Below are positions 44,615 through 50,578 of a DNA stretch of 64,000 bases, piece by piece (the first letter of the stretch is position 1; each line of letters opens with the position of its first letter). Below the pieces are notes generated by a model. The model saw nothing but the letters and a program-made list of their open reading frames with translations, ran no database searches and was not told the DNA's origin. Location of the stretch: IMG/VR virus record IMGVR_UViG_3300032282_005588, positions 16,083 through 80,082 of that record, one strand, 5' to 3'. This stretch comes from a virus. A program made the translations under genes and the position numbers.

Positions 44615-45631
44615 AAAAATAAATGGGTTTTTTAAGTAAAAGTACAATATTTATAAATGTAGAGTTGCGGCTACATGTAAGATATTTAATTAACTAAATG
44701 CTAATGGTGAGTAGAGTACCGCAATCTCGAAAGCCTTAGTATTTTTTATTTTATGAATTACCTAAAAATTTACGAACAATTAATTGATAAAGCTAAGAGA
44801 GAAGATAGAGATTACATAAGTAATAAAATCTACGAAAGACACCACATACTTCCTAAATGTATGGGAGGGGATGGGAAAGTTAATCAATGGAGAACTCACC
44901 CCAATATAGTAATTTTAACTCCTCGAGAACATTATTTAGCTCACACTCTATTATGTGAGATATATCCTGAAAATTCTAAATTAAAGTTTGCATTATGGGC
45001 TATGTCTAATCAATTAGGAGAAAACAGAAAATATAAAATATGTTCTAGACAGTATGAAAGAGTGAGAGAAAACTATGTAAAACTAGTAAGAGGAGTACCT
45101 AAGACTGATGAGCATAAAATAAAGTTAAGTGAGGCATTAAAAGGAAGGGAAAGAGAGGAATTTACTGAATTACACAAAATTAATATCAGTAAAAATATTA
45201 AAGGAATTAAAAAATCAAAAGAACATAGAAAAAATCTCTCTAAATCCAAAAGCATTCCTGTATTTCAATATACTTTAGACGGTGTGTTTTTAAAACAATG
45301 GGAATCTGCCAAAAAAGCAGGAAATATATTAAATATAGACCCTGGAGATATTACAGGTTGTAGAAGAGGAGTAAAAAAGAGTGCTGGGGGATTTCTTTGG
45401 AAAGAAAATAAGATAGAAGTTAAACCCTACAAACATAATAACTCATCTAATATATTGCAGTATACTCTCGAAGGAGAGTTTATACAAGAATTTCAAAGTA
45501 TATCTAAAGCTTCCAAAATCTTAAAACTCAATCCCTCAGGAATATCTAATTGTGCTAATGGAAGATCTAAATATTCTGGTGGGTTTATTTGGAGATATAA
45601 AAAATAGTTATTATTTTTAATAAATTAAAAG
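44615..45631 (+). other. Putative group I intron interrupting thyA
   Basis: Boundaries proposed from reading frame and pairing. The exon end AGAAAATT can pair with GGTTTTTT (44635-44642) to form an 8-bp P1-like helix with a U-G pair at the splice site, and the insert ends in G (45631). A further helix GAGTTGCGG/CCGCAAtCTC lies at about 44664-44731. A full P3-P8 core was not recognised, and little sequence follows the endonuclease ORF, so the intron class is uncertain. T4 td is a known precedent of an intron in thyA. Confidence 0.5.
44753..45607 (+). CDS. HNH homing endonuclease (HNH-NUMOD3-NUMOD1 x2)
   Basis: 284 residues. ERHHILPKCMGGDG and ILTPREHYLAHTLL form the HNH nuclease core. Two NUMOD3-like helical segments follow (DEHKIKLSEALKGRE; SKEHRKNLSKSK). 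Two NUMOD1 DNA-binding repeats end the protein, PVFQYTLDGVFLKQWESAKK and LQYTLEGEFIQEFQSISKA, each closing with a GGFxW motif. Such proteins mobilise introns by cutting intron-less alleles. It ends 24 bases before the 3' exon. Confidence 0.9.
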   Translation: MNYLKIYEQLIDKAKREDRDYISNKIYERHHILPKCMGGDGKVNQWRTHPNIVILTPREHYLAHTLLCEIYPENSKLKFALWAMSNQLGENRKYKICSRQYERVRENYVKLVRGVPKTDEHKIKLSEALKGREREEFTELHKINISKNIKGIKKSKEHRKNLSKSKSIPVFQYTLDGVFLKQWESAKKAGNILNIDPGDITGCRRGVKKSAGGFLWKENKIEVKPYKHNNSSNILQYTLEGEFIQEFQSISKASKILKLNPSGISNCANGRSKYSGGFIWRYKK

Positions 45632-46509
45632 TTATGAAATTTAAAAAAGAAGATTTACACCCAGATGGGAGACCATTCACCAAAGAAGAATTTATCAACA
45701 AAATAAAAACCGATGGTGAGTTTGCCAAGAGGTGGGGTGAATTAGGACCTGTGTATGGTAAGCAATGGAGACAATGGAGTACTCATAAAACTGTAGTAGT
45801 AGGGCATAATGGAAATCATAATGAATTTGGGACAATTGTTATAGACCAAATCCAAAACCTAATCAACGACCTTAAAACAAACCCAGACTCAAGACGACTA
45901 ATGGTTTCAGCTTGGAATGTAGGCGAATTAGACCAATGCGTGCTTCCACCTTGTCATTATGGATTTCAAGTTTATACAAGAGAGTTGAGTTTAAGTGAAA
46001 GAACTTTTTGGATTATGTCCAACAGACCTGAACAATTAGGGAGTCAAAATTATTTAGACGGAGATAGGCAAGGTATGAAATCAACTGATTATTATGGAGT
46101 ACCAACCAGAGCAATCTCTTTAATGTATAATACCCGAAGTCAAGATGTTCCATTAGGTACACCATTTAATATATCATCATATGCTCTATTGTTAGAAATT
46201 ATTGCGAAGATGGTTAATATGGTTCCTGAAGAGTTGATTACTAATATGGGTGATTGTCATATCTATCTAAACCAAATTGATGGGATTAAGGAACAATTAA
46301 CAAGAGAACCATATCCACTACCTAAATTGAATATTAATACAGAATGGTGGCCAACAGAAGGTGGTTCATGTGGTGAAGGTCCTTTAGATGTTCAAGCAGT
46401 ACTAGATGGTTTTTCTAGTGATTCTTTTGCAAGTTGTTTAATTGAAGAAGATATTCAGTTATATAATTATAAAAGTCATCCGGCAATCAAAATGCCTTTA
46501 TCAAATTAA
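45632..46509 (+). CDS. thyA: Thymidylate synthase, 3' exon
   Basis: Continues ThyA: LGPVYGKQWRQW, DPDSRRLMVSAWNVGELDQ, the active-site region LPPCHYGFQVY (catalytic Cys), GTPFNISSYALLL and MGDCHIYLNQIDGIKEQL. It ends SHPAIKMPLSN, corresponding to the usual HPxIKAPVAI C-terminus. An internal insertion (SERTFWIMSNRPEQLGSQNY) lengthens the middle. The last 11 codons are repeated three times downstream after later genes. Makes dTMP from dUMP supplied by the dCTP deaminase. Confidence 0.9.
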
Positions 46510-46521
46510 TAAATAAAAATT

Positions 46522-47085
46522 ATGAAATCAAATTTAACAGAAAAATTATCGTCTATTTGCGGGAGTGCAGATAAGACTTATGGTTGTAATGATATTGAAT
46601 CAATAACACAACTAACAGAAGAGCAACGTATTCAAGTAGAAGCAGAATTAATTAACCATTTTGGGTTTGATAAAATTATATGGATGCAACTTCCCTCAGG
46701 TCTTACAGAAGACAAAAAAACAACAATAGTTGCAGAAACTAGAAAAATATCAGATTCAGACGATCCAACTCACAAACATAAAGTAGGATATATTTACACT
46801 TTAAACTTTATTCCAAAAATGTATGAATCGGGAGAAATGTATAAACCAGTAAAAGATGGTTGTGTGTTTGCTCCTATCATCTTCGATCCAGTAACTTTTA
46901 CGCCTACACAAAGTATTACATTAACTTGGTCACCTGAATTTCCTCAAGACATTAATGCACCAGAAAGAACTCTTGAAGACGAAAAGCAAATGATTCGTGA
47001 TATGTTAGAAAAGGTATTGGACAATCCTGAAGAGTATAGACCGGTTGGATATACAGGATGTTTACTAAGGTATGTGGCAGTCTAA
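46522..47085 (+). CDS. Hypothetical protein between thyA tails (187 aa)
   Basis: 187 residues with several cysteines (SICGSADKTYGCND; GYTGCLLRYVAV). WMQLPSGLTEDKKTTIVAET and GCVFAPIIFDPVTF are recognisable strands. No family found. Its stop codon is immediately followed by a copy of the thyA 3' end, as if the gene had been inserted behind thyA together with a new tail. Confidence 0.62.
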   Translation: MKSNLTEKLSSICGSADKTYGCNDIESITQLTEEQRIQVEAELINHFGFDKIIWMQLPSGLTEDKKTTIVAETRKISDSDDPTHKHKVGYIYTLNFIPKMYESGEMYKPVKDGCVFAPIIFDPVTFTPTQSITLTWSPEFPQDINAPERTLEDEKQMIRDMLEKVLDNPEEYRPVGYTGCLLRYVAV

Positions 47086-47121
47086 TCACACCCAACAATT
47101 AAAGCGCCTTTAAGTAACTGA
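47086..47121 (+). repeat. thyA 3'-end remnant, copy 1
   Basis: In frame this reads SHPTIKAPLSN then TGA, matching the ThyA C-terminus SHPAIKMPLSN. It begins directly after the stop of the 46522 gene and is followed by CATATTTATTAACATG, the leader of the next gene. Confidence 0.88.
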
Positions 47122-47136
47122 TGCATATTTATTAAC

Positions 47137-47685
47137 ATGATAAAATTAATTGATTTGTTACGTGAAGTGAAAGCTGCAATCACTGATGATATGGTTATTG
47201 TACTAGACAAAGGGCCTACTTTGATATTATATAATAATAAAGAAGATGGCGTTTTAGGTTCGATAAATGTTTATAATAATGAGGTAACAGGTGTAGCTGC
47301 TGAAAAAGGTTTTGGGCCTATCATGTATGAATTAGGTATGGCTATGGTGTATCCAAAGCCATTACAATCAGATCGACGAGGTAATACTACAGAAGCAGCT
47401 GCAAATATTTGGAATAGGTTTATAGACGGTATCAACCCAAAAATAAAAGTGGAGAAAGTTAAACCAAGTGATAAGGATTATATGTCAGTATGGCCTGAGA
47501 CTGGAGAGGCTATTGACCCTTACTATTTAGATGGTTTTATTAACTATAAGTTTTACAATCCTGATAAATCAGTCCTCGATAAGTTAATTAAGAAAGGAGA
47601 TATTATACCAAAAGACAAACAAAAGGATATAATTAAGAGAGCTAATGATTTTTATCAAAGAAAAGTTAATCATCCCTACAACTAA
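47137..47685 (+). CDS. Possible GNAT-like protein with N-terminal tag
   Basis: 182 residues. The first 11 (MIKLIDLLREV) nearly match the start of the 47736 product, also at DNA level, and resemble T4 internal-protein capsid-targeting leaders in character. The middle segment GVAAEKGFGPIMYELGMAMV looks like the acetyl-CoA-binding turn of GNAT-type acetyltransferases seen in phage proteins. SDRRGNTTEAAANIWNRFID follows. It ends directly at a second thyA tail copy. Confidence 0.55.
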   Translation: MIKLIDLLREVKAAITDDMVIVLDKGPTLILYNNKEDGVLGSINVYNNEVTGVAAEKGFGPIMYELGMAMVYPKPLQSDRRGNTTEAAANIWNRFIDGINPKIKVEKVKPSDKDYMSVWPETGEAIDPYYLDGFINYKFYNPDKSVLDKLIKKGDIIPKDKQKDIIKRANDFYQRKVNHPYN

Positions 47686-47721
47686 TCACACCCAGCAATT
47701 AAAGCACCTTTATCAAATTAA
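47686..47721 (+). repeat. thyA 3'-end remnant, copy 2
   Basis: Reads SHPAIKAPLSN then TAA in frame. Directly abuts the stop codon of the 47137 gene and is followed by CATATTTATTAACATGATAA, which is also the start of the next gene. Confidence 0.88.
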
Positions 47722-47735
47722 CCATATTTATTAAC

Positions 47736-48167
47736 ATGATAAGATTAATTGATTTATTGAGTGAATCTCAGAATATACCTGAAGTATTATATCATTTTAC
47801 ATTACCTAAATATTTTGTAAATATGATAAAAACAAATACCATTAAGGCAGATCCTAAATTTAAACAAATATCATTCACTTCAGATCCTAATTTATGGGCT
47901 TTTAGAGAATTTAATGATGAGGATCAAGAAGTAGGAGTAAGATTAACTTTTAATAGTAAAGATTTACCTCCATTAACTCCATTTAAATATTCAGGAGCGC
48001 CAGGTGAAGAATATGGATATGAAGAAGAATATACTACAAATGTTGGAGATTTAAGACCATCAAATATTATGAATTTGATTAAAGATGTAACAGTAAATAA
48101 TTATTGGAAAGAATATCTCCAAAATAATCTTCCCAAAGACATATTTAATAAAATTAAATTTATATAA
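47736..48167 (+). CDS. Putative ART-fold-like protein with N-terminal tag
   Basis: 143 residues beginning MIRLIDLLSESQ, the shared tag. The body starts VLYHFTLPKYFVNMIKTNTI with ISFTSDPNLWAF later. The HFT...I...SFTxD arrangement recalls ADP-ribosyltransferase-like folds (DarT and relatives), but the catalytic residues cannot be assigned by eye. T4 packages an ADP-ribosyltransferase (Alt) with a similar leader, which motivates the idea. Treat as weak. Confidence 0.45.
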   Translation: MIRLIDLLSESQNIPEVLYHFTLPKYFVNMIKTNTIKADPKFKQISFTSDPNLWAFREFNDEDQEVGVRLTFNSKDLPPLTPFKYSGAPGEEYGYEEEYTTNVGDLRPSNIMNLIKDVTVNNYWKEYLQNNLPKDIFNKIKFI

Positions 48168-48186
48168 AATAACAAAAAAATAAATT

Positions 48187-48396
48187 ATGGAAAATTTCGA
48201 AAAATTAAATTTAAAAGTTAGAATTCAAATTCTTGATGCTAATGACCAAATTCTTTTACAATCTACAATTAATCAAAATGATGTAAATGATTTAAGAGTT
48301 TATCAAGGTGTTAGTCTTGTAGATGAAACTTACCTGATGTTGTTAGAAACATTAAAACAAAAAATAGATAGTGAATCAATCACACCCAACAATTAA
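48187..48396 (+). CDS. Hypothetical protein (69 aa) ending in a thyA tail
   Basis: 69 residues, KLNLKVRIQILDANDQILLQ at the start. The last six codons run into the third thyA tail copy in a different frame, so the original C-terminus was probably lost or altered on insertion. Unknown function. Confidence 0.58.
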   Translation: MENFEKLNLKVRIQILDANDQILLQSTINQNDVNDLRVYQGVSLVDETYLMLLETLKQKIDSESITPNN

Positions 48397-48415
48397 AGCA
48401 CCTTTATCAAATTAA
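48380..48415 (+). repeat. thyA 3'-end remnant, copy 3
   Basis: Reads SHPTIKAPLSN then TAA, in a frame different from the overlapping 48187 gene. Followed by CCATATTTATTA as after copy 2. It may be the oldest, original tail position. Confidence 0.85.
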
Positions 48416-48441
48416 CCATATTTATTATAAAAAAATAAACT

Positions 48442-48945
48442 ATGAAAAAAACAGAATTACAACAAATTATTAGAGAAGAGATTAGTAAAATAATAGGAGA
48501 GATAGGCGAAGCAACATCAAATCCATATTCATATAAATTAACATATGAAGATGGAAACAATGAAGACGAAGGTTATTATACATATGAATTCGAGACCAAT
48601 TCAGGAACAAAATATGAGGTGAGTGTAAAACTTAGTACAACGTATAGAGAAAAAAGTGGTGGCAAGAATACTAAGGAGATTGTAGTTGCATTTAAAACCA
48701 AGAATGGTGAATATGAGGATGTAACTCAGGAAAATGATAGTTATAGGATAATGGCTACTGTTATACAAATTGTTAAGGATTATTTAAAAGAAACACCTGA
48801 TGTTGATATAATAGAGTTTTCACCTGCAAAATCTAAAGATAATGATTCTCGTAGAGAAAATATGTATAAAGCTTATATATCAAAACAGTTACCTGGTTCT
48901 AAAGTTAGTGTAAATGGTTCTTGGTATTTTGTTGAATTAAAATAA
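48442..48945 (+). CDS. Hypothetical protein with N-terminal helical tag (167 aa)
   Basis: Begins KKTELQQIIREEISKIIGEI, a leader of the same helical type as at 34522, then a strand-rich domain (YEFETNSGTKYEVSVKLSTT; NTKEIVVAFKTKNGEYEDV). No family recognised. Possible head-packaged protein (inference). Confidence 0.58.
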   Translation: MKKTELQQIIREEISKIIGEIGEATSNPYSYKLTYEDGNNEDEGYYTYEFETNSGTKYEVSVKLSTTYREKSGGKNTKEIVVAFKTKNGEYEDVTQENDSYRIMATVIQIVKDYLKETPDVDIIEFSPAKSKDNDSRRENMYKAYISKQLPGSKVSVNGSWYFVELK

Positions 48946-49623: not shown

Positions 49624-49627
49624 TTTG

Positions 49628-49701
49628 TAGTCAGGACAGGATTCGAACCTGTATCTCAATACAATAAAGCAAAGTCGTTACCAATTACTAGCCACCTGAC
49701 T
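49628..49701 (-). tRNA. tRNA-like gene 1 (anticodon not assignable)
   Basis: Minus strand. 7-bp acceptor AGTCAGG/CCTGACT and perfect T arm ACAGG-TTCGAAT-CCTGT, 74 nt total with discriminator A and no encoded CCA. The D arm keeps TTGGTAA but pairs poorly, and no good 5-bp anticodon stem is visible, so identity cannot be given. Acceptor and T-arm pairing match tRNA-like gene 2 almost exactly. Confidence 0.55.
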
Positions 49702-49711
49702 ATGGTTTAAA

Positions 49712-49861
49712 TCATAGTAGATTCCAAACCTTTCGAATATATTTCCTTGCGTTCGCATACTGCGATTCACTCAACCCATAAAACAACCTCCATGTCTCAA
49801 GCATATCCATGGCGTCTTTCTTTGATGGTGCTGTTTCGATCATTTCTTTTATTTTTTTCAT
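49712..49861 (-). CDS. Small hypothetical protein (49 aa)
   Basis: Minus-strand 49-codon gene between the two tRNA-like genes, with leader AAAATAAAAGTT typical of the genome. Helical product: IKEMIETAPSKKDAMDMLET, then YANARKYIRKVWNLL. The exact fit between the RNA genes supports it. Confidence 0.52.
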   Translation of the reverse strand: MKKIKEMIETAPSKKDAMDMLETWRLFYGLSESQYANARKYIRKVWNLL

Positions 49862-49876
49862 AACTTTTATTTTTTG

Positions 49877-49975
49877 TAGTCAGGACAGGATTCGAACCCG
49901 TATGATAAGTAACTTTAAGACCATATTGTAAACCTATCTTATTGTGGTCAGCGTCTACCATTCCGCCACCTGACT
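49877..49975 (-). tRNA. tRNA-like gene 2 (Leu-type long variable arm, odd anticodon loop)
   Basis: Minus strand, 99 nt. Acceptor AGTCAGG/CCTGACT, good D arm (GCG...CGC with GGTAGA) as in tRNA-Leu, a small variable-arm hairpin, and T arm ACGGG-TTCGAAT-CCTGT. The anticodon stem GACCA/TGGTC encloses 21 nt in place of 7, so the anticodon cannot be assigned; 14 extra bases would have to be removed. Non-functional or unusual. Confidence 0.55.
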
Positions 49976-50367: not shown

Positions 50368-50450
50368 GATATTTATTTTTAATTCCTTATTACAACGTTA
50401 ATGTATGAAATTAGATCCGCATTGCCACATATTTCTCACAGTTTTCTATA

Positions 50451-50578
50451 GCGCGTTAATTACTAACGCACTAAAATTTCATTGAAAGTTAGCGCGTTAA
50501 TTACTAACGCTCTACATATTTTGTTACAATCTTGGTTGGATTCCCAGAATACGTTGCATACATTAACATCATAATAAG
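50451..50578 (+). promoter_or_regulatory. Palindrome-plus-promoter block, copy 2
   Basis: Two copies of GCGTTAATTACTAACGC (50451-50472 and 50491-50513), then GCATACATTAACATCATAAT ending at 50576, eight bases before the start codon. It also marks the divergence point from the minus-strand island. Confidence 0.62.

Follow-up and report, generated by a model that had tools for sequence, protein, structure and literature searches.

Displaced copies of the thyA 3' end in a phage gene array may mark a platform for insertion and recombination made by homing endonucleases

Why should the end of an essential gene be found again, several times, behind unrelated small genes? The question is raised by thyA in the viral DNA analysed here, a stretch of 64,000 nucleotides referred to below as the window. 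The gene ends in KSHPAIKMPLSN followed by a stop codon, and its last 11 codons, the live thyA tail, read SHPAIKMPLSN. An initial annotation had reported three extra tails downstream, and these were recovered as SHPTIKAPLSN, SHPAIKAPLSN and SHPTIKAPLSN on the strand of thyA (Table 1), where they are terminated by separate stop codons, namely TGA, TAA and TAA, respectively. As had also been reported, copies 1 and 2 abut the stop codons of the genes in front of them, cargo 1 and cargo 2; tail 3 overlaps the last codons of cargo 4 (..ESITPNN and stop) in another frame. The described near-identity of copies 2 and 3 amounts to 49 of 50 matching nt, including 14 nt past the tail, the match running through the tail into the following CATATTTATTA. 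Residues SN are encoded as AGTAAC in copy 1 and as TCAAAT in copies 2 and 3, and copy 1 is thus not a simple repeat of the same DNA. The cargo ORFs separated by the three copies number four, rather than the three implied by the annotation.

A 24-nt core of the tail occurs three times in the window when up to three mismatches are allowed, against no occurrence in 100 shuffles, which excludes a chance origin. With a DNA profile built from live tails, copies 1, 2 and 3 score 49, 59 and 58 bits, compared to a maximum of 8.7 bits on the reversed sequence. No further copies were found on the 80-kb contig. The odd one among the four is the live tail, which carries IKMP, while the displaced copies carry the canonical IKAP; the canonical thyA 3' end is TCACACCCAACAATTAAAGCACCTTTATCAAATTAA.

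Table 1. Features of the split thyA gene and of the tail array in the window.
Feature	Position	Strand	Remarks
thyA 5' part, 102 aa	44308..44616	+	Pfam Thymidylat_synt profile positions 1-82, E 5.7e-26
HNH-type homing endonuclease ORF splitting thyA, outside the tail array	44753..45607	+	phrog_655, E 2.7e-40
thyA 3' part, 291 aa	45634..46509	+	Thymidylat_synt profile positions 81-265, E 3e-57
Live thyA tail, SHPAIKMPLSN and stop	46474..46509	+	first half recoded
Cargo 1, 187 aa, family F5, MKSNL..	46522..47085	+	
Displaced thyA tail 1, SHPTIKAPLSN, stop TGA	47086..47121	+	
ATATTTAT element, putative promoter, between tail 1 and next start codon	47125..47132	+	
Cargo 2, 182 aa, N-terminal peptide MIKLIDLL.E	47137..47685	+	
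Displaced thyA tail 2, SHPAIKAPLSN, stop TAA	47686..47721	+	identical to another phage's live tail
ATATTTAT element after tail 2	47724..47731	+	
Cargo 3, 143 aa, N-terminal peptide MIRLIDLL.E	47736..48167	+	30% identical to L060 cargo protein
Cargo 4, 69 aa, family F2	48187..48396	+	last codons overlap tail 3
Displaced thyA tail 3, SHPTIKAPLSN, stop TAA	48380..48415	+	
ATATTTAT element after tail 3	48418..48425	+	
Gene after last tail, 167 aa, N-terminal peptide MKKTELQQIIREE as behind other phages' tails	48442..48945	+	

The thyA gene of the window is itself interrupted by the HNH-type ORF, which carries I-HmuI NUMOD-like and NUMOD1 domains. Since Rfam returned no intron match at E<=1 between 44250 and 46600 and an ATG is present at the 3' part itself, the interrupted thyA may be a split gene rather than one containing an intron. 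At gathering thresholds, Rfam found only tRNAs in the whole window. Two tandem tRNA-like genes sharing a repeated 32-nt 3' part lie at 49627-49975 on the minus strand; Rfam calls both and ARAGORN one (Asn). In addition, TAGCGCGTTAATTACTAACGC(A/T)CTA is present in the intergenic gap at 50449-50514 as two copies of 25 nt that are near-identical, both of them close to palindromic. For the tail array, an intron with alternative 3' exons was considered and rejected, as there is no Rfam match and no space between tail and cargo, which is filled by the cargo ORFs.

Comparison with related phages was based on 80 thyA relatives, and 62 de-duplicated thyA loci were scanned with the live-tail profile. 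The scan revealed 19 displaced tails, all of them downstream of thyA on the plus strand, with none upstream and none on the other strand. When the profile was combined with a DNA pattern scan, 49 distinct displaced tails could be listed (a low-scoring orphan call at +398 in L013 was left out of the count), and all those that can be placed lie downstream of thyA on its strand. In 37 of the 49, the start of homology to thyA falls within -12 to +3 relative to the S codon; the left edges are spread over more than 20 nt, and truncated and decayed copies are common. In full-length displaced tails, 54 of the codon changes relative to the consensus are synonymous and 32 are non-synonymous (63% synonymous), compared to 161 and 8 for live tails (95% synonymous) and a random expectation of 24%. 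It thus appears that the displaced tails were once under protein-level selection, which was later relaxed.

Homing endonucleases are frequent at this place. In many relatives, thyA is followed at a distance of 50-110 nt by a gene for an endonuclease of the GIY-YIG or, at times, the HNH type, and such ORFs directly behind thyA were found in L047, L062, L207, L208 and L221; Pfam and PHROGs indicated no endonuclease ORF behind the live tail of the window. The GIY-YIG gene directly behind thyA, with NUMOD3, I-TevI zinc-finger and I-TevI DNA-binding domains (Pfam), lies after the thyA stop codon and ahead of the next gene, with no surrounding intron or intein. Live tails next to endonucleases are recoded in frame and in a protein-conserving manner, IKAP being replaced by IKMP, IKLP or IYFP and the end ..PLSN being kept. 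Among the loci gathered with thyA as query, a non-Ala tail is present in 10 of 11 with an endonuclease directly behind thyA vs. 10 of 40 without (Fisher p 1.2e-4), while in the overall set, which is biased by how it was gathered, recoded tails occur in 37 of 40 and 12 of 108 loci, respectively. Three endonuclease loci retain Ala at the IKAP position. Furthermore, close relatives of the endonuclease (>=49% identity) are nearly all located 49-84 bp behind a thyA tail, in which IKA is almost never found. This link between endonuclease and recoded tail is only partly independent of thyA phylogeny: the tree, which has weak support, shows 15 and 10 changes, and well-supported branches provide only three independent pairs.

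A displaced tail follows the endonuclease directly in L047, L062, L207 and L208, and in L047 the endonuclease frame continues into it (..KYENYQSHPKISAPLSN and stop). No displaced tail was detected in more than half of the endonuclease-bearing loci. In L228, a displaced tail at +1461 of the tail start is itself recoded (SHPPIKLPLSN), which suggests nested successive insertions. The leader between the thyA tail and the GIY-YIG start codon contains a 15-bp hairpin over the ribosome-binding site (e.g., in L226 and L207). This hairpin includes the ATATTTAT element and shows compensatory changes at three pairs, its covariation score being reached in none of 500 shuffles.

Several loci carry what seem to be the remains of endonucleases. 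L221 and L072 have thyA ends that are 91% identical and share the recoded tail type, with an endonuclease in the former and none in the latter. In L094, a canonical tail is followed by the last codons (NYRYKD and stop) of an endonuclease that is still present in L213, and in L054 and L096 a recoded tail with the first hairpin arm of the leader is fused to TTTATCAAATTAA. In L121 the order is gene 1, tail, F2 and tail, both genes belonging to cargo families also seen in the window; behind these lie the final quarter of an endonuclease and its displaced tail. The IKMP tail of the window looks like the scar of such a lost endonuclease, as its first 21 nt are recoded (AGTCATCCGGCAATCAAAATG) and its last 15 nt are the same as in displaced tails 2 and 3, a composition that would fit loss by recombination between tails. 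The same architecture is present in one case at another essential gene. At L272:2080-6509, a distant GIY-YIG endonuclease lies between phage gyrB-like and gyrA-like genes, and the last 12 gyrB residues (LFENVDFSVLNK) recur right after it as LFENVDFSILNS and stop, with many synonymous differences.

The genes that precede displaced tails are in part the same among phages. Family F2, to which cargo 4 of the window belongs, stands directly before a tail in several other phages (seven loci in all), family F3 in six loci, and F5 (gene 1 of the window) in three loci plus one with a truncated tail. Behind the cargo 1 gene, L008 and L121 have a tail and L079 a truncated one; the copy in L044, which lies outside the array, has none, so that the tail is not part of gene 1. 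L064 and L194 share a block of 95% identity whose start lies 5 nt ahead of a tail, and the cassettes in front of this block differ. The cultured Flavobacterium phages immuto_2-6A and immuto_3-5A, which share the host strain LMO8, are 98% identical on both sides of their post-thyA cargo and differ in the cargo itself, namely a 65-aa gene, a partial tail and two genes vs. an 82-aa gene and a partial tail. The 65-aa and 82-aa genes end in ..PLSN/..GLSN, and the cargo is bounded by partial tails. According to the initial annotation, an array with the same order in distant phages would have to be old and static; the order is in fact variable, as cassettes common to several phages appear in different arrangements and the immuto phages differ exactly there. 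More generally, 161 pairs of loci whose thyA ends are similar were compared, and in about 120 of them collinearity breaks down no more than about 60 nt from where the tail starts.

Concerning the cargo itself, Pfam and PHROGs gave no confident function for the genes of the window, cargo 1 has no match among cultured phages, and the AlphaFold models of cargo 1 and cargo 3 are too low in confidence for use (mean pLDDT of 36 and 40, respectively). Cargo 3 shares with a gene of L060 (7847-8362) the motif YH[FS]T..(20-25 aa)..[FL]T.D, which we take to be reminiscent of ADP-ribosyltransferase-like folds. Otherwise unrelated small proteins, often encoded right behind ATATTTAT, have in common an N-terminal peptide of the form M[IT][KR]L[IK]DLL.E or MKK.EL.QIIREE (starts at 47137, 47736 and 48442 in the window; also L003, L016, L060, L097, L100, L103 and L116), possibly a packaging or targeting signal.

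What, then, may have produced these arrays? The tandem arrangement on a single strand is what segmental duplication of the thyA end within one genome would give, but displaced tails differ on average at 2.3 of 36 positions from the live IKAP tail that is nearest to them among other phages, and at 10.5 of 36 from the live tail of their own genome. For window tails 1, 2 and 3 the corresponding values are 3, 0 and 0 vs. 14, 9 and 10. Duplication within the genome is contradicted by these distances and extremely improbable; as the displaced tails are nearer to the live tails of other phages than to their own, it is the live tail that is the newcomer. It is also very unlikely that the tails are functional DNA or RNA elements, such as terminators or regulatory cassettes like the PeSLs of T4, that merely resemble thyA. 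The ATATTTAT element and a start codon do lie immediately behind 14 of the 49 displaced tails, as would suit such elements; however, the variation tracks codon structure, with alternative serine and stop codons, which rules out a pure DNA element, and truncation and decay are widespread. Such elements would be expected to show conservation in displaced tails at sites left free in live ones, and the reverse is observed. Given that the units resemble gene cassettes and that a tyrosine recombinase (PF00589 match) is encoded on the window's contig at 37799-38659, about 7.8 kb upstream of the array, the tails could be regarded as att sites in an integron-like system. Against this, no PF00589 match was found in 22 of the 24 records searched, including both complete immuto genomes, which differ at the thyA end, and the displaced tails have left edges scattered over more than 20 nt. 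Integrase and att sites are contradicted by cassette exchange in integrase-free complete genomes, and we give this idea very little credence.

A good part of the observations would be accounted for by passive recombination only, with the thyA 3' end as convenient (micro)homology for coinfecting phages and the endonucleases as mere cargo. Genes other than endonucleases precede most displaced tails, the immuto pair has partial tails, microhomology-like junctions and cargo genes with tail-like ends, and the loss of alignment at the tail occurs whichever gene comes next. However, this leaves unexplained the recoding of tails adjacent to endonucleases, often at an otherwise conserved Ala, as well as the scars in L054, L072, L094 and L121 and the endonuclease-bearing gyrB locus, and we thus believe that recombination of this kind is unlikely to be the whole explanation.

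In our opinion it is probable, judging from the sequences compared, that free-standing homing endonucleases have turned the thyA 3' end of these phages into a platform for insertion and recombination. Initially, the gene of an I-TevI-like GIY-YIG (or HNH) endonuclease would enter thyA at about codon -11, bringing recoded last codons with it. The recoding, in which the GCN codon of IKAP is usually lost, presumably makes the new tail uncuttable, while thyA would be kept intact and the old tail pushed behind the endonuclease. There, the displaced tail would act as a right-hand homology arm, allowing entry into any thyA, whatever lies downstream. Subsequently, recombination between live and displaced tails could remove endonucleases and add, swap or stack other small genes. 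The result would be arrays like that of the window, in which a recoded tail is followed by gene-tail units lacking an endonuclease.

Established by comparison, at the level of sequence, are the origin of the tails, the association of endonuclease, recoded tail and displaced tail in relatives, and the exchange of cassettes with edges at tails. From these we infer that canonical tails are cleaved and recoded ones immune, that tails serve as homology arms and that the window formerly contained an endonuclease. That displaced thyA tails are by-products of replacement insertions is well supported, and homing endonucleases likely drive the first step. Regarding the endonuclease-free units of the window, both co-transfer with an endonuclease and plain tail-tail recombination fit. 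Since many arrays, including both immuto ones, have no endonuclease, recombination between tails alone may drive much of the shuffling. The initial annotation had proposed repeated insertions behind thyA, each with its own replacement tail. Across the relatives this agrees well with former coding tails found only downstream and with recoded tails beside endonucleases; for the window itself it may apply only in part, as the insertions there lack an endonuclease, and recombination from tail to tail, instead of a fresh insertion for each, may have spread tails 2 and 3.

On a wider scale, there is perhaps an even chance that a general phage strategy is involved, whereby the 3' ends of essential genes (thyA, gyrB-like) receive homing endonucleases together with a recoded tail, displaced tails become portable homology arms, and small genes are traded in an integron-like way without an integrase. 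Such a mechanism would offer a testable answer as to how phages acquire and lose small accessory genes at set positions when no integrase is involved. The end of an essential gene would be rewritten by a selfish endonuclease, leaving homology for later cassettes, and the thyA end has apparently become a place where related phages swap gene cassettes. A recoded tail together with a displaced one would be a fossil mark that can be searched for behind any gene, and the cultured sister phages of one Flavobacterium strain are a system in which exchange could be watched.

By analogy, the nearest precedent appears to be the mORFs of fungal mitochondria, known from atp6 of Allomyces and from atp6, atp9, cox2 and nad3 of Glomus (PMC3630166). 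In these, an essential gene has received at its 3' end an endonuclease gene with a divergent replacement C-terminus, and the native C-terminus, displaced downstream, remains the closest to that of relatives (PMC3630166). The phage thyA locus likewise combines an endonuclease, a replacement tail and a displaced native tail closest to relatives, and would carry the fungal mechanism into phages. It differs in having several displaced tails per array, in the frequent loss of the endonuclease, and in non-endonuclease cassettes that are shared and reordered between phages. No earlier report of C-terminal replacement by phage endonucleases was found in the open-access papers searched. The free-standing GIY-YIG and HNH enzymes of T4-like phages (Seg, Mob) are similar in that the endonuclease gene lies beside its presumed target, with GIY-YIG and I-TevI domains, and in that intronless homing involves a hairpin over the ribosome-binding site and co-conversion of flanks; in contrast to thyA, the review of these enzymes makes no mention of a target C-terminus that is duplicated or displaced, and the cut site lies away from the insertion (PMC2988022).

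The resemblance to I-TevI of the group I intron in T4 td, the thymidylate synthase gene, extends to related catalytic, zinc-finger and DNA-binding domains, the same host gene, and a leader hairpin over the ribosome-binding site comparable to the late-expression control of I-TevI. The endonuclease next to thyA, however, is located outside an intron and just after the gene, whose tail it would replace. In T4-type phages, small genes are shuffled through short repeated sequences, the PeSL mobile regulatory cassettes; shuffling via short repeats is common to both cases, but the thyA repeat is the end of a coding gene and not a promoter stem-loop. Finally, like integron cassettes, the thyA array is open and consists of small genes, each with a short common sequence, beside an anchor, while in contrast to integrons it has no integrase requirement and no attC-like structure, and its edges are variable.
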